Assembly: GCA_016937975.1 (NCBI GenBank) | Contig: JAFGVN010000138.1 | Coordinates: 1 to 64,000 of the forward strand | Source: Clostridia bacterium | GTDB taxonomy: Bacteria; Bacillota; Clostridia; Peptostreptococcales; Acidaminobacteraceae | Length of the DNA: 64,000 bases | Direction: 5' to 3' | In this document: piece after piece, positions 50,452 through 63,636 of the stretch | Numbering within the stretch: the stretch's first letter is position 1 | Layout: the number at the start of each line of letters is the position of its first letter | Program-made: the position numbers and the translations under genes | The notes under the pieces: generated by a model | Seen by the model: only the letters and a program-made list of their open reading frames with translations | Databases searched by the model: none | Told to the model about the DNA's origin: nothing

Positions 50452-50545
50452 TTAATACCTCACATTCTTTTTCTCTATTTTACCATAAAACCGCTCAAAC
50501 ATAATGAATTACCAAAGAAAACCATTTGATTTCTTAATATTTTTT

Positions 50546-50572
50546 GTTGCAGTTGATTATATTAACTGCTAC
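50546..50572 (+). repeat. Hairpin just upstream of tnpA (possible left-end element)
   Basis: GCAGTT (50549-50554) and AACTGC (50564-50569) pair around GATTATATT, nine bases before the tnpA start. IS200/IS605 elements carry such hairpins at their ends. A second possible stem, AACGC with GCGTT (50995-51017), lies about 15 bases after the stop codon. Confidence 0.5.
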
Positions 50573-50581
50573 AATGAGAAT

Positions 50582-50983
50582 ATGGAACTCGAATACAGAA
50601 GAAAAAAAACAACCCTATCACTGATTAATTATCATTTTGTTTTTTGTCCGCGTTATCGCCGAAAAATATTTAATATTCCAAAGGTAGAAACGCGATTCAT
50701 GGAAATTGTTCATGAGGTGTGTGACGCAATGGAAGTGGAGGTCATTGCAATCAAATGTTATGAAGACCACACCCACTTGTTTTTAGGAGCAATTCCAGAG
50801 TTAAGTCCTTCTGATATTGTTGGAAGGATCAAACATCAGAGTTCTCGAATTTTGAGAAAAGAATTTACTGAGCTAAATAAAGCTGTAAGTCTATGGACAA
50901 GGGCATTTTTTGTGTCGACTTCATACGACACATCAGACGACACTATAAATCATTATTTGAGTGAGCAAAAGACAAGAGGTTAA
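50582..50983 (+). CDS. tnpA: IS200/IS605-type transposase TnpA
   Basis: 133 aa from ATG 50582. A longer frame adds residues from the region before the hairpin. The HUH nuclease pair is HTH in CYEDHTHLFLGA, and the nucleophile tyrosine is in the C-terminal helix TINHYLSEQ. The start LINYHFVFCPRYRRKIF is the classic IS200 opening, and the SLWTRAFFVSTS segment precedes the last helix. All key residues are present, so it may still be active. No TnpB partner is present. It cuts single-stranded DNA during replication. The ribosome site is weak, as is common for IS200. Confidence 0.88.
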   Translation: MELEYRRKKTTLSLINYHFVFCPRYRRKIFNIPKVETRFMEIVHEVCDAMEVEVIAIKCYEDHTHLFLGAIPELSPSDIVGRIKHQSSRILRKEFTELNKAVSLWTRAFFVSTSYDTSDDTINHYLSEQKTRG

Positions 50984-51220: not shown

Positions 51221-53101
51221 ATGAACCAATCTTACAACCAAATGTTTGTAGAGACAGAAAGCTTAGAAGAAAATAAATATCAAAAGATTCTTCTTGGGCA
51301 TAAAAAAGATCACCCTGAAACCAAGGTGATTATTCATAAATTTATAAAAAGCGAACGATTTGACGATGCCTTTTGTGCCTTGTTGGAATCGCTTCAAAAC
51401 GTACTGGATATTTTAGAGGAAGACGGTCAATACATTCTCATATCAAAATACCTTGAAGGAGATAACATTAGCCTTCACTTGAATTTTTCCAATATTACCG
51501 ACATTGAACGATTAGACTATCTTTATGAGTATTTGCATCAATGTGTTGCATATATAGGATTTGATCATTACATTTTTAATCTGCTGATCAGTTCAAGTCA
51601 AATTGTTTTTATTGATCACAAATTACACTTAAAAGAACAGATCGTACTCGATCGAAGAATTGATGAAGATATGCCCTTTTCAATGGTTTCCAAAAACATT
51701 GGTCAAGTTATGCAGCGCTTACTCATTACCAATTACAATGAATTGAGAACCTCACGAAAATACGATGAATTATATCAATTTACAGAAACCCTCATTCGCC
51801 GCGAAAAAGACTATCAATGTTTTGATGATTTATTCAATGACTTTAAGAAAATCTATTTTACTAAAGATACTAAAAAGAAAAGAGTTTTGTTAGGCGATAA
51901 TCATCCTAATAATATGTACTTAGAGCAAACTCAGGATAAGCCTTTTGCAACAACAATAAAAGAAGCGCCTGCACCACCTGTAAAAGAACCTGCATATGTT
52001 GCTCCTAACTTGGAAGTCACTGAGGAAGAACGTGCTATTCTCACTGGTCCAGTAGAAGAACATATTGATTTATCTAAACTTAATGATAAGACTTCTACCT
52101 TAGAAGAATTAATCATTAAAGATGAAGCAGAAGCATATGAAGCACCAAAAGAGAATGAAATTGATGAACCGGAATATGGTTATGGCGTCCCTGATTATAT
52201 GAAGGAAGAGCCTGAACCAGAAACCAAAAAAGAGAAAGTCTTTAATACTAACTGGATTATCCCTGCAGTCATTGGAGTAATGGTCATCATCTTAACTATT
52301 ATTGGTATTCGAGTAGTTAAGTTCTTTAATACCGATAACACCTTATATCAAAGACCTGAAGCAAAGTTTGAAGCATTTATTGAAGACGGTGCCTTGGTTT
52401 GTAAAAATTTAAGTGTAGCCTATGATGGACAAAGCATTACTGAAAGTCTATGGGTTATTACCAAAGACGGGAAAGAAGTGTTAAATGAATCTATGGAAGC
52501 AATGTCAGGTATACGTGTAAGCAACATGTCTGAAGGTGTTTATACCATAAAGCTTACAGTTACGGATTCTGCAACACAATTCAGCGATCCGTATGTCATA
52601 GAAAAAGAGTATTTAAGTCCTGAAAGCAAATCCCTTGAGAATCAAAATTTGTCAGAGGCTCGTATTTCAAAAGATAATAAAGCAAATGATCATACGCAAG
52701 ATATCGTTGAAAAACTAGATAATTATGTGATTGAATCCACTGAAAATGTTTCAGTGGATACATCCATTTATTATTCTGGTGATAAGTCCTTGAAAATGGA
52801 TTTATCTGAAGGAGATGCCAAGTTAATTTTAACAGGTTTAGACGTTGAAGCAAAGTCCACTATTTCTTTCTGGATGATGACAAAAGACCCCTTAACCATC
52901 ACTGCAATTATAAATGGATTTAACAACGGACTGAATAATTACAACAAGCAACTGGCGACAACCAATTCTGAAGTTCTAAGCTGGAAAGCTATTTCTGTTC
53001 AACTCAACGTTGATGAAGAAACGGATTATCTCACTGTAGAATTTCCTCAAAGCGATACGATTGTTTGGTTCGATGATTTTACCATAAGAACTTTCAAGTA
53101 A
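51221..53101 (+). CDS. Membrane protein with a kinase-like cytosolic domain and external Ig-like and jelly-roll domains
   Basis: 626 aa. N-terminal cytosolic region (about 20-215) has the spacing of a degenerate protein kinase: VIIHKFIKS with lysine 40, hinge-like YILISKYLEGDNI, then FDHYIFNLLISSSQIVFID in place of the HRD and DFG loops. A charged, Pro/Glu-rich linker (about 240-340) leads to one membrane segment (345-367). Outside lie a PKD/Ig-like region (about 378-465) and a C-terminal beta-rich domain (about 495-626) like carbohydrate-binding jelly rolls (YYSGDKSLKMDL, VWFDDFTIRTF). Catalytic motifs look lost, so it is likely a pseudokinase. I do not recognise a known family. The ATG follows AGGAGG. 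Confidence 0.65.
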   Translation: MNQSYNQMFVETESLEENKYQKILLGHKKDHPETKVIIHKFIKSERFDDAFCALLESLQNVLDILEEDGQYILISKYLEGDNISLHLNFSNITDIERLDYLYEYLHQCVAYIGFDHYIFNLLISSSQIVFIDHKLHLKEQIVLDRRIDEDMPFSMVSKNIGQVMQRLLITNYNELRTSRKYDELYQFTETLIRREKDYQCFDDLFNDFKKIYFTKDTKKKRVLLGDNHPNNMYLEQTQDKPFATTIKEAPAPPVKEPAYVAPNLEVTEEERAILTGPVEEHIDLSKLNDKTSTLEELIIKDEAEAYEAPKENEIDEPEYGYGVPDYMKEEPEPETKKEKVFNTNWIIPAVIGVMVIILTIIGIRVVKFFNTDNTLYQRPEAKFEAFIEDGALVCKNLSVAYDGQSITESLWVITKDGKEVLNESMEAMSGIRVSNMSEGVYTIKLTVTDSATQFSDPYVIEKEYLSPESKSLENQNLSEARISKDNKANDHTQDIVEKLDNYVIESTENVSVDTSIYYSGDKSLKMDLSEGDAKLILTGLDVEAKSTISFWMMTKDPLTITAIINGFNNGLNNYNKQLATTNSEVLSWKAISVQLNVDEETDYLTVEFPQSDTIVWFDDFTIRTFK

Positions 53102-53120
53102 TTACATAAGATCAAAATAA

Positions 53121-53143
53121 AAACAGCCAACGCTGTTTTTTTC
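53121..53143 (+). terminator. Terminator of the kinase-like membrane protein gene
   Basis: AAACAGC and GCTGTTT form a stem around CAAC, followed by TTTTT, 20 bases after the stop codon. Confidence 0.85.
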
Positions 53144-53233
53144 AAGCCTTATAACATAGAAAAAGCCATCATAACAGTTCAAGTAACTACTACAACAGCT
53201 TACGTTTCTATTTTTTTCCCTAATAAGTATATT

Positions 53234-53437: not shown

Positions 53438-54478
53438 TTAATTATTGTGACAAAAACTGCTAATTTTTTTTGCCATATCTTCTGCCCTTTTTCTAATATC
53501 CTTTAATTCCAACACTTTTAGAGGTTCGTTAGCAATGGCCATAATGGTAAACTGAGGTGGTAGAAAGAAACCTTTATTAATATTTAATGCGCCTATTAAT
53601 TGTTTTGCCACAGAATCCGACCCTGAATTTCCAGATACAATAACTGCATAAAAATGTTTGTTATGAAAACTCATTTGTCGATACAGTACAGTCAATCGAT
53701 TAATCACTGCAAGAAGATTGGCTGATACGGTGTCATTGTAATTGGGACAAACCCAGAAGATTACATCTGATTTCTCAATTGCCGGTAGAACTTCTTCCAC
53801 CATCACACCGCCATAGAAGCAGCTATGATGTTCACCAAAATACATGCACGTCTGAAATTTACAACCTTTACAATCGACCACTGTACCATTTTCAATGTGG
53901 ATTTCCTCAGGATTCAAACCGCTTTCAATCAATCGCTCTTTAACAAGATGCCATAAGCCTAAAGTGTTGGAAGTTTTATATGAGCTGGCATGTAAAGCTA
54001 ACATGTGTTCACAGCTCAAATGAATTTCATCCCTTAATCGTTCAATTAAATGCCTACATTGCTTGTTGCAGATATCTTCAAGCTCCAAGGACTCTATCTT
54101 CTTCCAGGTAATAAAATTTTGATAATCTGAGACGATTTCTACAACTGAATGACCAATAAAGGCCATACCATTTGCATTACAATGTAAAATCACATCTTGT
54201 GCAAAGGATTTTGTATATAATTCTGAATCACTTTTAACAATAACAGCACCTGTACAACCTTCAAAAGTGTTCCCTTTTTTTATATACTCCGAAAGCCATT
54301 GCAAGAGTTGCATATCATAACCTAAATGATTCAATTCACAAACAATGAGGACCTTTCTTTGATGCAAAGTTTCTTTACCCGTATAAATTTCAAAAGGGAT
54401 ACTTTCTAAACCATAGTTTAAGTGTGCCCTTAATCGGTCAGAAATATTAAAATGAATAACCACTATTTTATTCTGCAA
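53438..54478 (-). CDS. NAD(P)H-dependent flavin oxidoreductase, flavodoxin-like, with extra N-terminal domain
   Basis: 346 aa. Residues about 150-345 are a flavodoxin fold with FMN-phosphate loop ALHASSYKTSNTLG (S165 region) and a cysteine cluster C203, C206, C211 (CKGCKFQTC) plus C220, as in iron-sulfur flavoproteins and NADPH-dependent FMN reductases. Residues 1-145 form an additional alpha/beta region that looks like a second, degenerate flavodoxin half (VLIVCELNHLG, GCTGAVIV). Overlap of 11 bases with the dehydrogenase-like gene indicates one operon. It may supply electrons to or regenerate a nucleotide cofactor used by its neighbours, but no reaction can be assigned. Last gene of the operon. 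Confidence 0.8.
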   Translation of the reverse strand: MQNKIVVIHFNISDRLRAHLNYGLESIPFEIYTGKETLHQRKVLIVCELNHLGYDMQLLQWLSEYIKKGNTFEGCTGAVIVKSDSELYTKSFAQDVILHCNANGMAFIGHSVVEIVSDYQNFITWKKIESLELEDICNKQCRHLIERLRDEIHLSCEHMLALHASSYKTSNTLGLWHLVKERLIESGLNPEEIHIENGTVVDCKGCKFQTCMYFGEHHSCFYGGVMVEEVLPAIEKSDVIFWVCPNYNDTVSANLLAVINRLTVLYRQMSFHNKHFYAVIVSGNSGSDSVAKQLIGALNINKGFFLPPQFTIMAIANEPLKVLELKDIRKRAEDMAKKISSFCHNN

Positions 54479-55649
54479 ATTTCTTCAACTCCTCATAAGT
54501 CTTATTTAACCGCTTCATTAAAAGTTCAGGCATGTGATATTTTTCTACTGCAAATAAATGATCCCCAATTTGTTGGTTACGACACCCAAAATAGACACCA
54601 TTTATATAAGTTGTCGAATGGTGTTCCTTTCCTCTGAGACAATCTGAGATAGCCAAAGCAGCCGAAGATAACGCAGGCGCTATAAAAGGTTTATAACCGA
54701 CTGCTCTAACATCTAAATTGGCTTCAACGGTCTTTTGAGTTAAAGCTAATGATTTTTTCTCATTATAATTCGACATATCGTCAGCAATGATTAAATGTTG
54801 ACCATGGGGACCGAAGGCACGTCCCTTTTCAATATAATGATCACAATCACACATTTCGCTATAATAACACGCTCTTGCATGCATCACACCTAATCCAAAT
54901 CCTTTTATTTGCTCAGCTTTTAGATGACCTTTACCAAAATCCAACACTGCCCGACACAATAAATCAACGGGGTCTGATACAACAAGAAATAAACCCTGAT
55001 AATCCGCTTTCACAGCTTGTTCTACAAAAGACTGAATTATTTTTTTATTGGCTTCATACTGATACATTCGAACATCTTTTATTTCAGATCCCACTTCAGG
55101 AATTCTTGAAGATGCTGTAAAGATAAAAGCATCACAATCAAATAAAGCTTCTCTTGAAATACCAAATACAGCTGGCCATTGGTCAGAAGACAAACTTCTG
55201 ATTTGATTCAGTTCATAGACATAACGTTTAACCTTCATTGAATCCAAATCAAAAATACCAATTTCATCAATGATATCTCCTGCTGTCAATCTTAAACCAG
55301 AAAGCATCATGCCACCAACATCACCTAAACCTAAAACATGAACTTTATATTTGTTTTTTTTCGTCAAAAAATTTAAATCACTTTTATTTAAATTTACACC
55401 AATCAATTTATGCTTAGAGATCCATGTACCAACTTCTGTTTTTTCAGGCAGAGAAAACATTTCTTCTAAAGTAATATGATGTGCCTTTAGAAAGGATTCA
55501 TGATGAATCATATGAACCCCCTCCAAACTATCGCTACGGTAGAGGTAGTAAATGAAATCATCTTCAAAGGCTTCCAAAGCCCTATATTCATCCTTCTCTA
55601 TGGGTTCTTTCGATAAAATCTGATGTGTATTATATAGATATTTATACAT
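54468..55649 (-). CDS. Divergent lactate/malate dehydrogenase-family protein
   Basis: 393 aa from ATG 55649 behind AGGAGGCTT. An 11-codon longer frame overlaps the fusion gene. A Rossmann loop VHVLGLGDVGGMML (about 105-118) with a following acidic strand (IGIFDLDS), VVSDPVDLL (NPVD-like) and GPHGQHLII, which holds a histidine in the place of the catalytic LDH/MDH histidine, mark the family. About 95 residues precede the Rossmann start, unlike typical LDH. The NPVD asparagine is replaced by aspartate, so the substrate may differ. It sits 7 bases after the fusion gene, in the same operon. Confidence 0.8.
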   Translation of the reverse strand: MYKYLYNTHQILSKEPIEKDEYRALEAFEDDFIYYLYRSDSLEGVHMIHHESFLKAHHITLEEMFSLPEKTEVGTWISKHKLIGVNLNKSDLNFLTKKNKYKVHVLGLGDVGGMMLSGLRLTAGDIIDEIGIFDLDSMKVKRYVYELNQIRSLSSDQWPAVFGISREALFDCDAFIFTASSRIPEVGSEIKDVRMYQYEANKKIIQSFVEQAVKADYQGLFLVVSDPVDLLCRAVLDFGKGHLKAEQIKGFGLGVMHARACYYSEMCDCDHYIEKGRAFGPHGQHLIIADDMSNYNEKKSLALTQKTVEANLDVRAVGYKPFIAPALSSAALAISDCLRGKEHHSTTYINGVYFGCRNQQIGDHLFAVEKYHMPELLMKRLNKTYEELKKFAE

Positions 55650-55656
55650 AAGCCTC

Positions 55657-58600
55657 CTAAGCCTTTGGTTCTTTATAAACAAAATGTTTTAATCTTCTCA
55701 ATTGCTCCAAATCATTATATAAGTAATCCGAAGATTTTTGTGACATATCATAGCTTATTTTTTCTCCGCGATCTGGAAACCTTGGAGAAATTAAGACTTC
55801 ACCTAAATGCGCTAGAGTCAAACTATTTTCATGAAGGTACTGAAATTCTTCTTCTAAAACCTTTAAGATATCAATAGCATTCTCCAAACAAACTTCAGAT
55901 AAATTATAAATGGCCTTCATAGTACTACCTGTAATATAACTTGGAGAGGTATATGGCAATATCTGATTAATTGAAGGAATAATATTTCTCTCAGGAATAA
56001 CGCCGCGCCACAACGTATCACCACCTAAAAACGGATACATGAGACTTTCATTGAACCACACCTTTAGCCTTGGTATAAAGTAAGCACTGTCTACGGCAAT
56101 ATTTTGATTTTCCATTAAAGCTTTACCTCTACCAGACATAATCCCAACAATCACTTTCTTTATGTTAACGCCTTCTTCTCTCATTAAAGGTTCTATGGCT
56201 TGAATACGATAGCCTTTATTGAGCAAATCGTCTACTAATATGACAGGTCGATCAAAAGACTTTATTCTTTTGACTTGATTCTTAATGTCTAAATAATAGG
56301 GATAAGCTTGAATCTCATAACCTTTGACATCCGGCGTAAAGAATCTTTCAGTATGAAGAGATTTGGTCACTGTATTCGGTAAAATCCATCTTTTAAAAAC
56401 AGCACCAAAAGGAACACACATTGCATCACCTAAAGATCTCGGATGAGTCGGCACACTAGGAACACCATTATCATCAGCAATTTTTTTAATTAAATTTTCA
56501 TAGAGCATTGTTCGATCAAAAGATAATACCAGCTGACCAGGATATAATTGTGTCATGGCTTTCTGAAGTTTCTTTCGCGATCTATTAATCACATCAACAA
56601 CATTAGAATTTGATCTTAATGGTTCCTTTAACACTGTTCTTGCATCTAAATTCAACGTACATGGTGATGACATTTCAACTGCATAAACATTTACGCCGTT
56701 TAAACATTCATGAATGATTTGGAATCCATGTAATTTTAATAGCTCATGAAAACGCTCTGAAATATGCGTACCCTTTATAGGATTAATGACAGAATAACTA
56801 TAATCTTTGGCTAAACAGAATGCCAAGGTTTCTGTTAAAATCATTTGCTCTGGATCAGAAAATTCATAAGGATTTGTTATTACCATGGCATCAATGACCA
56901 AAATTCGCCCTACAGAGTGTTCTAAAACATATTCCGATACCTTTTCATGTTCAAACTCCTGATACACCTTTGAACTTCGTAACCAGTGAAATATTGCATA
57001 ACCAATAATTTGATTTTCATCTTTAATACTTCTTAAAATCATTGCTCTTGGTTCATGTCTGTTTGCGAGCAACTTCAAAGCTTCATAATCTGGTTTAAAT
57101 GTTTCATCACTGTGGGCAATCAGTTCCTTAATAACACCTTCATCTAACTTTTCTATGACTTCAACGAATACTGACTTTGTCGTAATCATTTCTTTAAATT
57201 GAGGTTCTCGCTGATACAAACCACGAGCATAGATATATTTCATAGCTAAAGGATCAATCAAATCGGAAATATCACGATTCTCATCAATGTAATTACGTAT
57301 TTGTGTAGATGAAATTTGCTCAAATTGAGGTGGCAGCACTAAACGAACCACTTCTTTATTTAACCTTCTTACATTGGTTTCGAGGCGTTCCATCTCAACA
57401 GAACTATAAATTTGCGCATCTCTTTCAAAGATGACATGAGCAAAATTATGGATACTATACTTTGATTCATCTCTCTTATAAGCAGAAGCATTTAATATCA
57501 CATCACTGCCTATTACAATATAAACATCCGATGGATAAAATGTTTTTGCCAAGACTTCCAAATCTTTTGGATTTGCAATATTCACTGAAACATCTCTAGG
57601 GAATACATATAAGTTGAACTCATCTGCAATGGACATTTTCATAATATCTCTACGAATTAAGTTTGGTTGTGTACGTTTTGACCAGGAAAACTCATCAATA
57701 GATAGATATACTTCAAAGCCTAAATCACGAATCCCTTTTGCAATTTCCTTATGACTCAACGAAAATGGATCAAAAGCACCCGGAAAGAATGCAATTTTTT
57801 TATAGGTATCCACCTGCAATTCACCTTTTTCAAAATAATGATCAGAAATAAAATTATAAATATGATTTAATCCTGCAGCATTATTCAGATAAATTAATTC
57901 TTTCGATTCGTCTGTATTCACCATTAAAGACAATATCTTTTTAATCATCATATTGAAAATTTTGGCTTTTTCTTCCATGGTTAAATACTTCGTACTAAAC
58001 AAATGCTTTCCAATAACATTAACCGCTGTTTGGTTTACTCTTGTATCATAATTTACAAATCCTTTTAGCAAAATACCCAGTAATTCTTTTAGAATCATAT
58101 CATAATCTTCACCATACTGTTCGTAAGATAAATGTTCAATTACAACACCGGTAGTCAACAAGACCAATGTACAAATTTGAGGATTTGCCCTTTCAATTTT
58201 CTCAATAAAACTATCAACAATTTCCAAAAATTCTTGACGATCCAATTGATTCATCAGAATTCCTAAATATTCACAAATATATTTTGTGTATTGATAGTTT
58301 TCCATTTCCAAAGCACGAAGCAGTTCAATTACAATATCATTAATCTGTCCTTTAGAAAGATGCTGAGACAACTCAATCAAACCTCTTCCCGCTGCATTTC
58401 TAACACTTTCATGAGACGAAACTTTCAAGAGATTACATAAATGCATCGCCAAGTAAAAGGAGTCACTGGTTCGATGTAATACAACAAATTTTAATAAAAG
58501 TTCAATTTGTAACTTTTTGCAAACCCAAGAAGTTGCTGACTTTAAATTGGACAAGTATACATCAGAACTGCCATCCACCTTTTCGATACAACTTACACGA

Positions 58601-60555
58601 TATAATTCTACCTGTTCTTCTTTTGCATGGGTTAATTGCAATAACTTATATCTAACATAGGTTTCAGCAGGTGAAATTTCATCCATGTCGTCACTTTTAT
58701 AAACCAACTTAATATTTTTTATATCTGCCGGTGTTAACTGAGGAATAATTTCACAAAAAACATCATAAGCTTGTATTCTTAGAATCGCATTTTCACTCAA
58801 AGATACTTTGTTAATATAATCAACAATCACTTCTATATCTTCTGAAATCAGACGTTGAAAGGGCAATACACGAACGACTTCCAACACATATTGAGCCAAT
58901 TCATCTTCAACACTTCTACGGCTGAACAGTTCAGTGAATTTTTTGACATAAAGATGGCATTTTTCATCTGTTACATGGCTCAATAGCGAACTGACCATAT
59001 AACCCACACTGAGACGAATCCATTCCTTATGTTTATCAATGATTCTGAGATTAGGGAATAGGGTTTTCGTCAGATAATTCTCGAAAAGCTTAAACGAATC
59101 TATTTCAGCAATAGTTTTTCTAGCACCTTTTGGCAACTCTTTTCGTTCAATTTCATCAAAATTTGCAATTAATAAACCAATTAGTTTTGCAGAGTTTTTA
59201 CGAATATCATCTGCTGGCAACATCAAACGGTCATATAAGAAATTCAAGGCTATTAATTTTTGCTTCTGTGTTAAGTACTCAGAATACTCCTCTATAATGT
59301 TCTGATAACTTCTTAAACTATCAACATTACCTAAACCTCTTGCATTTTCCAACATGGTAGTCAGAGAATTCTCATCTCTCAAGCGATTCATAATACCAAT
59401 ATTATGACTAATAGATAAAAATTTTGCATTTTCTACTAAAGTTGCACCTTGCATAATAGAAAAATGTTTTCTGTCAGCTTCATAATCCGCACCGATATGT
59501 TCAACTGAATCAGGGTCTAAATTAACACCTTTCTCTTTCATAAAATTTTCAAAATCTTTTAATCTATTGTAAACTCTTCGGTATCTTCTCTCCTTTGCTA
59601 AATCTACATTATCCAATTTACTTAAGATCACATCAAAGGCTTCATCCAAAGAATAGTAACGCATTGGGTATTTACTATTTTTATTTTCATTTGCTTTTAC
59701 TCGAAAATCACAATAAATCAAAACTAGGGATTCTAAACTTAAATTTGCCAATTCTAAATCCCAAGTTGAATGGTTAAAAGCCACATTTCTAATATAGACG
59801 ATTTGTCGGTTCGTAAACCATTCCGCAGTATAGTAATAATGATAGTAAGCTACTTTTTTACTTTCCTCAGGTTTACAGCCATACTTTCCAATATCATGAC
59901 CATATGCGGCACCAGAAACACGACCAAGATCTATAGGAAGTTCTAAATGTTTTAACTGTCTTCCAATTTTTACAGCCAGATGATGGACACCACAAATATG
60001 ATCCAAAGTACTGTATCCAATAAGATCTTGGTTCATTTTCATCATTTCATACACATATTCCACATCCAAATAACGAATAAATCTTTCATACTCATCATCT
60101 TCCAATTCCTCAATTTCATCGGTCTCTAATAAATTGAGAGCATAACGACTTACCCATGCATCATGGTCTAATTCCTTCTGCAAATTGAAAAATATGCGAA
60201 GTATTTTTAAGGCAATTAATGCAACAGCATCCTTTTGTGCACTTCTGTTTTCAAGTTCTATTTCATCGTAAGATAATTTAAGCGCGTAAGTATAGGTGTA
60301 TTGTTCCAACTCCTCCAAAGTATTAAAGATCCTAAAATTATCTGTCACAATTTTAAAACTACAGTAGAACAATTGAAGAATATCTTGTGTTTTAAAGTGT
60401 TTGTCTTCAATTAAATTCATCATTTCATTTTCAAAGGCATCATTGGCTAAACACTCTTCAACCTTGCTTATTTTATGACTTCTATCCTGTTCCAACAAAT
60501 AGTTGACGAGAATCTGATGTATTTCTTCTCTAATTTTTATCATTCTAACGTACAT
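55657..60555 (-). CDS. 1632-aa fusion: HD, helical repeats, NadD-like nucleotidyltransferase, GNAT-like, phosphoribosyltransferase-like
   Basis: 1632 aa. Domains in order: an N-terminal helical region, an HD domain (about 180-310; HICGVHHLA, GHDIGKYG, IYCDFRVKANE) and a long alpha-helical, HEAT-like region (about 330-910). A nucleotidyltransferase follows with PGAFDPFSLSH (about 925-935) and ISSTQIRNY (about 1082-1090), the NadD/PPAT signatures. A GNAT-like segment (about 1155-1290) is next, and a phosphoribosyltransferase-like domain has the PRPP motif PVILVDDLLNKGYR (about 1437-1450) with a C-terminal extension. The pieces suggest nucleotide or NAD-like cofactor chemistry coupled to HD-type hydrolysis. 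The full fusion is not one I can tie to a characterised enzyme. First gene of a three-gene operon; ATG after GAGGTATAT. Confidence 0.8.
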   Translation of the reverse strand: MYVRMIKIREEIHQILVNYLLEQDRSHKISKVEECLANDAFENEMMNLIEDKHFKTQDILQLFYCSFKIVTDNFRIFNTLEELEQYTYTYALKLSYDEIELENRSAQKDAVALIALKILRIFFNLQKELDHDAWVSRYALNLLETDEIEELEDDEYERFIRYLDVEYVYEMMKMNQDLIGYSTLDHICGVHHLAVKIGRQLKHLELPIDLGRVSGAAYGHDIGKYGCKPEESKKVAYYHYYYTAEWFTNRQIVYIRNVAFNHSTWDLELANLSLESLVLIYCDFRVKANENKNSKYPMRYYSLDEAFDVILSKLDNVDLAKERRYRRVYNRLKDFENFMKEKGVNLDPDSVEHIGADYEADRKHFSIMQGATLVENAKFLSISHNIGIMNRLRDENSLTTMLENARGLGNVDSLRSYQNIIEEYSEYLTQKQKLIALNFLYDRLMLPADDIRKNSAKLIGLLIANFDEIERKELPKGARKTIAEIDSFKLFENYLTKTLFPNLRIIDKHKEWIRLSVGYMVSSLLSHVTDEKCHLYVKKFTELFSRRSVEDELAQYVLEVVRVLPFQRLISEDIEVIVDYINKVSLSENAILRIQAYDVFCEIIPQLTPADIKNIKLVYKSDDMDEISPAETYVRYKLLQLTHAKEEQVELYRVSCIEKVDGSSDVYLSNLKSATSWVCKKLQIELLLKFVVLHRTSDSFYLAMHLCNLLKVSSHESVRNAAGRGLIELSQHLSKGQINDIVIELLRALEMENYQYTKYICEYLGILMNQLDRQEFLEIVDSFIEKIERANPQICTLVLLTTGVVIEHLSYEQYGEDYDMILKELLGILLKGFVNYDTRVNQTAVNVIGKHLFSTKYLTMEEKAKIFNMMIKKILSLMVNTDESKELIYLNNAAGLNHIYNFISDHYFEKGELQVDTYKKIAFFPGAFDPFSLSHKEIAKGIRDLGFEVYLSIDEFSWSKRTQPNLIRRDIMKMSIADEFNLYVFPRDVSVNIANPKDLEVLAKTFYPSDVYIVIGSDVILNASAYKRDESKYSIHNFAHVIFERDAQIYSSVEMERLETNVRRLNKEVVRLVLPPQFEQISSTQIRNYIDENRDISDLIDPLAMKYIYARGLYQREPQFKEMITTKSVFVEVIEKLDEGVIKELIAHSDETFKPDYEALKLLANRHEPRAMILRSIKDENQIIGYAIFHWLRSSKVYQEFEHEKVSEYVLEHSVGRILVIDAMVITNPYEFSDPEQMILTETLAFCLAKDYSYSVINPIKGTHISERFHELLKLHGFQIIHECLNGVNVYAVEMSSPCTLNLDARTVLKEPLRSNSNVVDVINRSRKKLQKAMTQLYPGQLVLSFDRTMLYENLIKKIADDNGVPSVPTHPRSLGDAMCVPFGAVFKRWILPNTVTKSLHTERFFTPDVKGYEIQAYPYYLDIKNQVKRIKSFDRPVILVDDLLNKGYRIQAIEPLMREEGVNIKKVIVGIMSGRGKALMENQNIAVDSAYFIPRLKVWFNESLMYPFLGGDTLWRGVIPERNIIPSINQILPYTSPSYITGSTMKAIYNLSEVCLENAIDILKVLEEEFQYLHENSLTLAHLGEVLISPRFPDRGEKISYDMSQKSSDYLYNDLEQLRRLKHFVYKEPKA

Positions 60556-60715: not shown

Positions 60716-60762
60716 CTTAGAAAAGAAATACCACCCTTCTGCACTCCAGAAAGGTGGTATTC
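60716..60762 (-). terminator. Terminator after the DUF523 gene
   Basis: AATACCACC pairs with GGTGGTATT (minus strand, 60727-60761) and TTTCTTTTC follows. It separates mutS2-DUF523 from the fusion-gene operon; the 150 bases beyond it to 60556 should hold that operon's promoter (a TATAAT-like box near 60590). Confidence 0.8.
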
Positions 60763-60763
60763 T

Positions 60764-61192
60764 TCATACACTTAAATTCTCTTCATTTACAACTTTAATA
60801 CCTTTTTTCTTCAAAAATTCTGCCAATAAACCTTGACCTGGTATTAATGTTCTTGAAAAAGTACCATCATAAATCATCTGACTGCCACAAGATGGACTCT
60901 TTGCTTTCAATATTGCCAAATCAACGTGTTGATAAGCTATCAATTTTCCAACTTCATCCACACCTTTTAAAAACGCCTGTGTACAATCTATGCCATCTTC
61001 TGTTTGAATCAAAACAGGCTCCAAAGAAATGATTTCACAAGGTTTTCTCGGTGTTGAAAGACCTCCCATTTGCTCTGGACAAACAGCTATAAACTGCTTT
61101 CCCTTTAGAAAAGCTTCTACATCTAGGTAAGTTTTTGCCTGCCCATCATATCGGCATGCCAATCCTAACAAACAACTACTAACTAATATCAT
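60764..61192 (-). CDS. DUF523 family protein (YbbK-like)
   Basis: 142 aa. The start ILVSSCLLGLACRYDG, the CPEQMGGLSTPR segment and KSPSCGSQMIYDG are hallmark DUF523 motifs with conserved cysteines (about C7, C13, C38, C102). These suggest a metal or Fe-S site. Function is unknown; the family is widespread. The ATG overlaps the mutS2 stop codon as ATGA, so it is co-translated with mutS2. Confidence 0.93.
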   Translation of the reverse strand: MILVSSCLLGLACRYDGQAKTYLDVEAFLKGKQFIAVCPEQMGGLSTPRKPCEIISLEPVLIQTEDGIDCTQAFLKGVDEVGKLIAYQHVDLAILKAKSPSCGSQMIYDGTFSRTLIPGQGLLAEFLKKKGIKVVNEENLSV

Positions 61193-63561
61193 GATTTCCT
61201 CATTGTTATTACTGTAACACCTGATCCACCTTCTCCATACTCACCTTCTCTTGCATTTTGAATATGAGGATGTCTTTTAAAATATTCACTTAATTTACTT
61301 TTTAAAACACCTGTACCCTTACCATGAATAATTGTCACTTGTTCTAAACTTGACAAAGCTACGTCATCTAAGTACTTTTCTATTTGATAACTTGCATCTT
61401 CAAAATTCATACCTCTAACATCAATAGAAGTACTTAAATCCGATGTTTTGGATGAAAATCGTTTCGCAGCTTTAAAGGAATCTTTCTTCTTTGTTTCCTT
61501 GCTTCTTCTCAGTTGCTTGACATTTACTTTCATTTTCATAATGCCAACACGAACCATCACGTCACCTTTGCTATCTGGTTCGGATGCTATTTCACCTTGT
61601 TGATCCAAGGTAACAACAAAAACAGGTTCTCCAACTTTCAAATTTTTCGGTACGTCACCCTCCAAATCTGAAGGCATCTTCATGCCTTGACGCGTATCGC
61701 TTAAACCTTCATTCAACTTATGACGCATAGCCTCTATTCGCTTGTTTTGATCCTTATCACTGATTTGTTTAACAGATCTGAGTTCACGTATGATTTCATC
61801 GGCTTCCTGTTTTGCTTTTTTCAGAATAGCATTGGCTTCTTGTTTTGCTTTTGTGAGGATTTTCTCTTCTTTGCTATCAAGGGATTCCTTTTTAGACTCC
61901 ACGTGTTTCTTCAATTTTTCTGCATCGAGTCTTAGACGCATCGCTTCATCTAGTTCTGCCTCAGAAGCTTTTCTATTGTGTTCAATGCTACTGAGTATAT
62001 CCTCAAATTCAATGCTGTTGTTATCCACTAATGCTCTTGCTTGCTCAATAACATGGTCACTTAAACCCAGCTTTTTAGAGATTTCAAAAGCATTAGATTT
62101 ACCTGGCACGCCAATTAGAAGCTTATAGGTAGGACTTAAAGTTTCTACATCAAATTCTACACTTGCATTTTCTATACCTGGTTTGACAAAAGCAAAGTGC
62201 TTCAACTCACTATAATGGGTTGTTGCTAGTGTTCTAATTCTACGGGTATAAAGGGACGAAAGAATTGCCATAGCTAAAGCAGCACCTTCCGTAGGATCCG
62301 TACCAGCACCTAACTCATCAAATAGAACAAGAGAGTTCTCATCAACTTCCTTTAAAATCTCAACAATATTTGTCATATGGGAAGAGAACGTACTTAGACT
62401 CTGTTCAATACTTTGTTCATCACCTATGTCTGCATAAACAGCATCAAAGATACACATCTCCGTACCATAATCTGCTGGAATATGTAAACCTGATTGAGTC
62501 ATTAATACCAATAATCCTAGAGTTTTTAATGTGACTGTTTTCCCGCCTGTATTGGGACCAGTAATTAACAAAGTGGTAAATTCATCCCCCAACCACAAAT
62601 TAGAAGGTACAACAACTTTAGGGTCGATAAAGGGATGTCTCGCATTTCTTAATCTTAATTTCTTTTCTTCATTTATGGTTGGTGGCATACCCTTTAACTC
62701 AATGGACAAAAGGGCTTTTGCAACAACAAAATCCAAATGAGCCAATACTTTTTGATTGATTAAAACAGCCTCATGAACTTCATGAAAATCTCCAGTAATC
62801 TCAGTAAGGATTCTTTCTATTTCTGCTTTTTCCTGAAGTTTTAGTTCCTTTAAATCATTGTTCAATTCCACAATAACCATAGGTTCAATATATAAAGTGT
62901 TTCCACTTGAAGATCGATCATGTACAATACCTTTAATATGACTTTTATGTTCACTTCTTACAGGTATTACAAATCGATCATCTCGAATCGTTACCAAACT
63001 ATCTTGTAAATATTTTTGCATCACATCTGAATTTACAATTTGATTCAGTTTGCTTCGTATAGACTGATTCTTCTTGTCTATCGCCCTTCTGATATTCATG
63101 AGTCCTGGACTCGCCTGGTCAGATAGTTCATTTTCACCAATGACTGCAATATTAATTCTCTCTTCAAGGGGTAAAAGAACAGTTATTTGTTCGCTATAAG
63201 CACCAAATATCGGATATTTCAAATCCGGCGTATTGGCTTTTGTGATATGTCTTTTTACCCGTCTTGCAGTTCTTAGGGTATCTGAAACCATTAGCAATTC
63301 ACCGGGATATAAGAACCCACCGATTGCAGCTCTTTTTACGAAAACATCCATCCCTTGAAAAGGACCCATTGGAAAGTTACCATTGGATATAACCATAGAT
63401 GTCATTTCAGAGGTTTCATCCATCCATTCTTTTACTTTTGAAGGATTTGACGAAGGTTTTAACTTCAGTACTTTCTTCTTCCCCAACTCGGAACTTGCTT
63501 TATTTTTTAGTTTCTCTATTATTTTATCGTACTCTAGTACGCGTAATGCTCTTGAATTCAT
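61189..63561 (-). CDS. mutS2: MutS2 DNA-binding ATPase with C-terminal Smr domain
   Basis: 790 aa from ATG 63561, behind GGAGGTAAAG. A TTG four codons earlier overlaps the site. The MutS core and clamp domains are followed by Walker A ITGPNTGGKTVTLK (about 333-346), Walker B SLVLFDELGAGTDPTEG, a coiled coil (about 510-625) and a C-terminal Smr nuclease-like domain (about 712-790; DVRGMNFEDA, IIHGKGTGVL). MutS2 limits recombination and, in Bacillus, rescues collided ribosomes. All ATPase motifs look intact. The DUF523 gene overlaps its end. Confidence 0.97.
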   Translation of the reverse strand: MNSRALRVLEYDKIIEKLKNKASSELGKKKVLKLKPSSNPSKVKEWMDETSEMTSMVISNGNFPMGPFQGMDVFVKRAAIGGFLYPGELLMVSDTLRTARRVKRHITKANTPDLKYPIFGAYSEQITVLLPLEERINIAVIGENELSDQASPGLMNIRRAIDKKNQSIRSKLNQIVNSDVMQKYLQDSLVTIRDDRFVIPVRSEHKSHIKGIVHDRSSSGNTLYIEPMVIVELNNDLKELKLQEKAEIERILTEITGDFHEVHEAVLINQKVLAHLDFVVAKALLSIELKGMPPTINEEKKLRLRNARHPFIDPKVVVPSNLWLGDEFTTLLITGPNTGGKTVTLKTLGLLVLMTQSGLHIPADYGTEMCIFDAVYADIGDEQSIEQSLSTFSSHMTNIVEILKEVDENSLVLFDELGAGTDPTEGAALAMAILSSLYTRRIRTLATTHYSELKHFAFVKPGIENASVEFDVETLSPTYKLLIGVPGKSNAFEISKKLGLSDHVIEQARALVDNNSIEFEDILSSIEHNRKASEAELDEAMRLRLDAEKLKKHVESKKESLDSKEEKILTKAKQEANAILKKAKQEADEIIRELRSVKQISDKDQNKRIEAMRHKLNEGLSDTRQGMKMPSDLEGDVPKNLKVGEPVFVVTLDQQGEIASEPDSKGDVMVRVGIMKMKVNVKQLRRSKETKKKDSFKAAKRFSSKTSDLSTSIDVRGMNFEDASYQIEKYLDDVALSSLEQVTIIHGKGTGVLKSKLSEYFKRHPHIQNAREGEYGEGGSGVTVITMRKS

Positions 63562-63636
63562 CTTTACCTCCAAAACCGATTATACACTTATGATTATACC
63601 ATTTTTGAGGGCTTTATATTTTACAATACTATTTCA

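Follow-up and report, generated by a model that had tools for sequence, protein, structure and literature searches.

Co-inheritance of a giant fusion protein with two unusual redox enzymes suggests that anaerobic bacteria have a nucleotide or cofactor pathway not yet described

Enzymes that combine a NadD-type nucleotidyltransferase with an HD hydrolase on a single chain are the closest described precedent for the protein treated here. In the NadD-YqeK fusion, the HD domain hydrolyses nicotinic acid adenine dinucleotide analogues bearing wrong bases (PMC9426524), and the ligand pattern H...HD...H...H...D has been linked to the dinuclear sites of both YqeK and HD oxygenases (PMC8177086). Here we analyse a stretch of 64,000 nucleotides (the window; positions 1 to 64,000 of contig JAFGVN010000138.1, assembly GCA_016937975.1) from a Clostridia bacterium of the Acidaminobacteraceae, which encodes a fusion protein of 1632 amino acids together with an LDH/MDH-like dehydrogenase and an FMN_red-type flavoprotein. 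The three genes are referred to as the trio. Like NadD-YqeK of the JCVISYN3A_0380 type, the fusion unites a NadD-type nucleotidyltransferase with an HD hydrolase in a single polypeptide, and the HD motif has the same six ligands. It differs in that about 570 residues lie between the two domains, the acceptor-site residues of the nucleotidyltransferase are replaced, an arginine of the HD domain is absent, GNAT-fold and phosphoribosyltransferase (PRTase)-like segments are added and two redox genes lie alongside. On the sequence features tested, we assign the fusion to neither the NadD nor the YqeK family. In its mode of action we think that the trio resembles an enzyme that both makes and breaks a nucleotide, with redox steps coupled to it, and we assign a probability of roughly 0.4 to the reading that it is a nucleotide-linked cofactor or metabolite system in which the nucleotidyltransferase product would feed the redox enzymes while hydrolysis by the HD domain would be separable.

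All three genes lie on the minus strand. The fusion gene (55657..60555) is followed by the gene for the LDH/MDH-like dehydrogenase (54468..55682), which yields 404 amino acids from a TTG or 393 from an ATG at 55649, and by that for the flavoprotein (53438..54478; 346 amino acids from a TTG). When the ATG at 55649 is taken as the start, seven bases separate it from the fusion stop, which is overlapped by a GGAGG ahead of that ATG; the stop of the dehydrogenase gene and the TTG start of the flavoprotein gene overlap by 11 bases. Coordinates, order, gap and overlap agree with an earlier, sequence-only reading of the window. From the N to the C terminus the fusion consists of N-terminal helices, an HD domain (59521..60108, residues 150-345), a HEAT-like helical repeat scaffold (57856..59388, residues ~390-900), a NadD-like nucleotidyltransferase (57190..57804, residues 918-1122), a GNAT-fold domain (56665..57174, residues 1128-1297), a PRTase-like segment (55996..56628, residues 1310-1520) and C-terminal helices. 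The sequence-only reading had listed HD, HEAT, nucleotidyltransferase, GNAT and PRTase domains. Profile or fold comparisons uphold the first four, and the PRTase fold is unproven, the matches being weak and the model of low confidence; the middle segments do carry nucleotidyltransferase and GNAT folds, the point on which that reading had staked itself.

Of 41 relatives (own genome counted), 30 possess all three genes, the fusion gene being defined by its open reading frame and by its homologues, and the other 11 possess none of them. The raw tally for the fusion was 32 of 41; genomes G029 and G033 were set aside because their matches are proteins of NadD size only. Among 293 Clostridia the fusion is found in 23 and the LDH-like gene in the identical 23, and the flavoprotein was present in all 24 further fusion genomes queried. 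Across the phylum, 8 of 398 genomes carry the fusion, again counting the genome studied here. Fusion-bearing genomes belong to several families and to more than one class, and order and strand of the trio are conserved in 28 of 37 neighbourhoods. The homologues are near full-length and share 34-75% identity, the fusion of the window being 74% identical to its homologue in Acidaminobacter sp. JC074, to which the host is close. The gene set and its co-inheritance are in this way demonstrated, and the expectation of the sequence-only reading that the trio would be conserved together elsewhere holds. The set of 37 neighbourhoods excludes L021, L022, L025, L027, L039 and L051; L021, L022 and L025, which are copies of other loci, and fusions under 1400 amino acids were left out of one protein set, and L001-L020, which cover the same places in shorter form, were not used. 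Near-identical pairs were both counted, L024/L041 in the neighbourhoods and the context count described below, L055/L064 in the context count. The distribution samples cover the relatives, Clostridia and the phylum. A search of plasmid records with the fusion matched one, a 2.63-Mb record of Acetoanaerobium; this entry (L064, NZ_CP154629.1, Acetoanaerobium noterae) is filed as a plasmid, bears the trio and is probably a mislabelled chromosome.

The nucleotidyltransferase segment carries the motifs GxFDPF[ST]x[SGA]HK and ISSTxIR, reaches 24.3 bits with the Pfam model CTP_transf_like against a cut-off of 21 and matches NadD structures both by profile and by fold. With the NadD/NMNAT family (TIGR00482) it has in common the fold, GxFDP with the following histidine, and ISSTxIR. 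The catalytic skeleton of NadD (GxFDP...[HT]xGH, ISSTxIR) is present and H935, S1083 and R1087 occur in 40 of 40 trio copies; the first histidine of the motif is replaced by serine or threonine, and its glycine position is occupied by serine, glycine or alanine. In contrast to members of that family, every score of the segment with the NCBIfam NadD models (E-values from 9e-10) stays under the model cut-off, that with TIGR00482 amounting to 38.9 bits against a curated 112.45, or 43.8 bits at the window locus in a genome search. The PHK motif and the tryptophan following GxD are acceptor-site residues of NadD. Both are found in all 12 NadD proteins of the same order that were aligned alongside and in none of 15 fusion sequences, which have tyrosine in place of the tryptophan, while the catalytic skeleton is kept in these 15 domains with the exception of some copies that are paired with a kinase. 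Loss of PHK and the change from tryptophan to tyrosine despite retention of the catalytic skeleton argue for an acceptor that probably differs from that of NadD. Furthermore, the same genome encodes on another contig a canonical NadD that scores above the family cut-off, and an HD match begins 77 bases after it; judged from position alone, these two genes are taken to be the classical nadD-yqeK pair. The sub-cut-off score, the changed acceptor site and the separate canonical NadD led us to reject the identification of the fusion domain as NadD: of the NadD/PPAT-type enzyme put forward in the sequence-only reading, the nucleotidyltransferase fold and the catalytic skeleton stand and the membership in NadD falls. 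A second, weaker NadD-family match was noted in genome G000 (contig C75, 12208-12771) with 113 bits, just over the cut-off, and a similar one (117 bits) is carried by G002.

The HD domain of the window protein lies below the Pfam cut-off (16.9 versus 22 bits), and the model is matched at E ≤ 0.1 in 14 of 26 fusion members. Its six ligands (H186, H220-D221, H239, H262 and D283) form the same dinuclear motif as in YqeK-type HD hydrolases (PMC8177086) and are intact in 54 of 55 aligned homologues, that is in 39 of 40 trio copies, in all seven kinase-paired copies and in all eight remaining ones; the exception, L062, is without the domain. When the HD profile was compared with HD proteins of three genomes, the best probability was 64% and fell on proteins other than the NadD-adjacent one, and the domain is accordingly placed in no HD subfamily. 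The six-ligand motif is also common to HD-domain oxygenases (MIOX, PhnZ and TmpB), which use O2, with a YxxE loop as a feature of PhnZ and TmpB. The hosts of the fusion being presumed anaerobes, an oxygenase role is unlikely.

Both redox partners resemble well-known families and depart from them at conserved positions. The dehydrogenase (Pfam Ldh_1_N, 38.4 bits) aligns with L-lactate dehydrogenases and has the Rossmann N-terminal domain with its glycine motif, both substrate arginines and the catalytic histidine in common with L-lactate and malate dehydrogenases. R205, R270 and H293, which we take to be the equivalents of Arg109, Arg171 and His195 of the dogfish enzyme, are present in 23 of 23 proteins. 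It differs from those dehydrogenases in that the asparagine of the SNP motif is aspartate (23 of 23), in a score far below the cut-off (46.5 versus 339 bits) and in an N-terminal extension of about 100 residues, which is variable and missing in some homologues. The flavoprotein clearly exceeds the cut-off of Pfam FMN_red (75.8 versus 24 bits) and combines this domain with a cysteine cluster, as do NADPH-dependent FMN reductases/iron-sulfur flavoproteins. The latter have a compact four-cysteine spacing; here C203, C206, C211 and C220, conserved in 23 of 23 proteins, are spaced CX2CX4CX8C, and a part of about 150 residues at the N terminus lies outside the FMN_red match. A search of solved structures with the flavoprotein profile gave no match at E ≤ 0.001.

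These findings bear on the possibility that the trio repairs or proofreads NAD(P)-type dinucleotides, with nucleotidyltransferase and PRTase-like segments binding damaged or mis-made molecules, the HD domain destroying them and the redox pair reducing or oxidising repairable forms. The pairing of HD and NadD-like domains is that of the mycoplasma NadD-YqeK fusion, for which such a role has been proposed (PMC9426524), the six-ligand motif equals that of YqeK (PMC8177086), and the glycine motif retained in the LDH-like protein fits as well. We nevertheless consider this explanation unlikely. The genome already has a separate canonical NadD with an HD match 77 bases on, whose identity as YqeK is deduced from position; the acceptor-site features of NadD are replaced in every one of the 15 fusions aligned; and a repair role alone does not require the co-inheritance of three genes in so small a fraction of Clostridia (23 of 293).

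The remaining segments of the fusion are less well defined. Structure models were built from seven sequences and have a mean predicted local distance difference test score (pLDDT) of 60.9 and 77.0. The scaffold between HD and nucleotidyltransferase is predicted to be helical and its fold matches HEAT/importin proteins; such HEAT proteins fill the VIA match list of the N-terminal model, and Pfam HEAT is matched in 8 of 26 members. For the GNAT fold, VIA-align gave a best Z of 13.9 with a root-mean-square deviation of 2.9 over 144 aligned residues, the 50 rows being mostly N-acetyltransferases. This segment is the least conserved part of the fusion after the N terminus. GNAT enzymes have the acetyl-CoA loop (Q/R)xxGxG/A after strand 4; inspection of the alignment by eye revealed no recognisable loop of this kind, and VIDxxx...NxEQxILTE stands in its place. 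Since no acetyl-CoA loop can be recognised, acetyl transfer is doubtful, and the acetyltransferase reading was dropped despite the presence of the fold. In the PRTase-like segment, Pfam Pribosyltran matched 8 of 26 members (best E-value 7e-4; the window protein is not among them), an APRT model matched 19 of 26 weakly, and marginal PDB matches fall on the same loop. In type I PRTases the loop that binds phosphoribosyl pyrophosphate (PRPP) usually has small or hydroxyl residues after DD. As in these enzymes, the fusion has DD and then G in a loop following a hydrophobic strand and is matched weakly by APRT/HPRT models, but its loop contains K and R (lvDDxlxKGyR). The form DDxxxKGxR (DDLLNKGYR type) prevails in nearly the whole family, with the second aspartate in 34, K1447 in 31 and R1450 in 36 of 37 trio copies. 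The PRPP-binding motif proposed earlier is thus present in altered form, which makes use of PRPP uncertain.

A macromolecule could also be the target: the HEAT scaffold would bind a protein or RNA, the nucleotidyltransferase would nucleotidylate it, the HD domain would remove the mark and the redox pair would act on the modified group. In our judgement a scaffold of about 510 residues is unusual for a small-molecule enzyme, and a GNAT fold without acetyl-CoA loop might offer a surface for peptides or RNA. On the other hand, the HEAT region is poorly conserved among trio copies (mean identity 0.38, versus 0.60 for HD and 0.55 for the nucleotidyltransferase), no gene cluster beyond the redox genes appears in more than 13 of 37 neighbourhoods, and the two substrate arginines retained in the LDH-like site fit a small 2-hydroxyacid. 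Modification of a macromolecule appears rather improbable on this account.

The natural history of the fusion provides a link between its nucleotidyltransferase and the redox genes. The context set comprised 54 fusion homologues of at least 1000 amino acids plus the window. Both redox genes are near in 39 of the 54, an APH-fold kinase is adjacent in seven, and neither is near in eight. Of these eight, two extend to the end of their contig (L052 and L082) and two are second copies (L060 and L061); the redox genes of L065, L066 and L067 lie farther off or on another contig, and those of L049 lie on another contig of the same genome. The kinase-paired copies (L037, L056-L059, L075 and L081), whose neighbours were identified by Pfam APH for L037, L057, L075 and L081 and by BLAST for L056, L058 and L059, are second copies without redox genes nearby, and each of the seven genomes concerned carries the trio genes as well; at the 39 trio loci no kinase homologue is adjacent. 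They fall into three places of a quick tree, namely L037, L075 with L081, and L056-L059 with the solo copy L060; the tree includes the nucleotidyltransferase columns, omits L052, L061, L062 and L064 and has long branches for L059, L060 and L069. The signature H935/S1083/R1087, which is whole in all 40 trio copies (window included), is whole in only one of seven kinase-paired copies (L037) and in six of the eight others, the two broken ones belonging to the second copies L060 and L061. Signature and ligand counts cover all 40 trio copies, the conservation table 37 of them (without L048, L062 and L064). The conserved motifs and the link between an intact nucleotidyltransferase and neighbouring redox genes are in this respect observations.

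A naturally split version of the fusion exists in the 1.8-Mb genome G021, which has two shortened members with HD and nucleotidyltransferase divided between them. The trio copy L062 (8163-11393, 1076 amino acids) adjoins the redox genes, has no HD match and has kept the nucleotidyltransferase signature. The solo copy L061 (7937-11590, 1217 amino acids) has kept all HD ligands; only the first 59 of the 205 residues of its nucleotidyltransferase segment are matched beyond the start, and ISSTxIR is missing. We read this arrangement as a probable division of labour in which the nucleotidyltransferase goes with the redox genes and the HD domain acts separately. The pathway had been termed self-contained in the sequence-only reading, which is doubtful in view of the HD domain lying apart from the trio copy in G021 and of kinase-paired copies without redox genes. 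A second messenger or alarmone, made by the nucleotidyltransferase, degraded by the HD domain and sensed by the redox proteins, would suit a chain that carries both a maker and a breaker domain, as SpoT does (PMC8177086), and the placement of the two activities on two proteins in G021, but it is quite improbable, as the families searched among the recurrent neighbours revealed neither a receptor nor an effector gene and PADLOC gave no match for fusion or LDH-like protein and, for the flavoprotein, only DndE (0.036 over 17 residues). PHROG yielded no match for any of the three proteins, and the fusion is absent from phage records and was not found in viral contigs; a defence or phage origin was rejected on these grounds.

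We return to the reading of the trio as a nucleotide-linked cofactor or metabolite system, for which we infer catalysis, order of steps and nature of the molecule as follows. The nucleotidyltransferase would transfer a nucleotidyl group to an acceptor other than the usual nicotinate mononucleotide, possibly one that the PRTase-like site prepares or binds. Both the LDH-like protein and the four-cysteine flavoprotein would use the nucleotidylated product as substrate or cofactor. The HD domain may hydrolyse a phosphoester or diphosphate nucleotide, serving either the turnover of the same product or the clearing of wrong ones, a task that would be separable from the nucleotidyl transfer, and the HEAT region may act as a scaffold. 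In second copies without redox genes the nucleotidyltransferase site tends to decay, with a small-molecule kinase becoming the neighbour.

Several observations weigh against this proposal. Phosphohydrolase HD domains have an arginine three residues before the first histidine, as reported in PMC8177086; none is found in the fusion, where position 183 is T in 30, S in four, I in two and L in one of 37 trio copies and again T in seven of seven kinase-paired copies. In all 23 LDH-like proteins the equivalent of Asp168, the partner of the catalytic histidine, is Met267. The PRTase assignment of the C-terminal segment is weak: large parts of it are modelled with a pLDDT under 50, and when its profile was compared with PRTases from three genomes, no probability exceeded 10.7%, which is not significant. 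Co-inheritance counts are uncorrected for shared ancestry and the samples overlap. The rule linking intactness to redox partners is not perfect either: the nucleotidyltransferase is intact in the kinase-paired L037, and in the second copy L060 it has decayed with no kinase alongside. Finally, decay in L056-L059 is not confined to the nucleotidyltransferase, whose mean identity to trio copies is 0.36 versus 0.55 among trio copies. The GNAT (0.31 to 0.16-0.23), HEAT (0.38 to 0.29-0.31) and PRTase-like segments (0.52 to 0.39-0.44) fall as well, and HD alone holds (0.60 to 0.53-0.59). As the other segments decay too, it is the lost nucleotidyltransferase residues and not the drop in identity that carry the argument. 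An extended version of the proposal is doubtful: in anaerobic Bacillota the giant enzyme would assemble phosphoribosyl and nucleotidyl parts into a new redox cofactor or metabolite linked to a nucleotide and control its turnover, dehydrogenase and flavoprotein would use or mature it, and the kinase branch with decayed nucleotidyltransferase would process a related phosphorylated compound.

Upstream of the fusion gene, at 60764-63573 (minus strand), lies a gene of the 2-thiouracil desulfurase family (DUF523) with a 4-base overlap with a gene that is MutS2-like by eye. In L028 and L029, too, this pair is found close to the trio, as it is, in opposite orientation, in L050. A terminator-like hairpin of 16 pairs (60726..60762, minus strand) between the DUF523 gene and the fusion gene suggests that the trio is a transcription unit separate from the former, and two further hairpins with three G-C pairs each (53119..53201, minus strand) follow the flavoprotein gene. 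Since such sites are about as frequent in shuffled sequence (3.5) as in the native one (4), the hairpins are only suggestive of one transcription unit, with position and stem length alone speaking for it. On the other side of the trio, at 51221-53101 (plus strand), a protein of 626 amino acids is encoded in which inspection by eye suggests a single membrane segment; its sole match, to PKD, is weak. In 12 of 37 neighbourhoods a cluster homologous to it lies past the trio on the other strand, in eight of these followed by genes judged SbcCD-like by eye. An IS200-like transposase gene (Y1_Tnp; 50504-50983, plus strand) lies between a gene that is SbcD-like by eye and that for the 626-residue protein. 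The recurrence of the SbcCD-like genes (by eye), a PP-loop gene and BrkB is limited to some of the loci, and we do not count them as partners. In two loci of one family (L065, 7419-12737; L066, 8243-13446) the fusion and LDH-like genes are separated by an ammonium transporter gene and three genes of glutamate-synthase type, annotated by Pfam for L066 only; glutamate synthase was set aside as a pathway partner, being seen at these two loci only.

A search of the open-access literature (titles and abstract openings, subscription journals lying outside) returned no description of the fusion or the trio. All folds recognised are known, and the combination of domains, the co-inherited trio and the kinase-paired branch are undescribed in the literature searched. 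The chemistry of the trio could nevertheless prove to be a variation on NAD-type metabolism. That a nucleotide pathway of uncharacterised kind is at hand had already been proposed on the basis of the sequence, and this idea receives support: a co-inherited giant fusion and two unusual redox enzymes suggest a pathway for a nucleotide or cofactor that has so far gone undescribed in anaerobic bacteria. Natural variants with intact and decayed domains, together with the split genome, make the roles of nucleotidyltransferase and HD domain directly testable. When three large genes are co-inherited across several families and beyond a single class, they usually stand for an entire pathway, here one of which the papers searched describe no step; if the proposal is true, these bacteria would make or recycle an undescribed nucleotide-linked compound.

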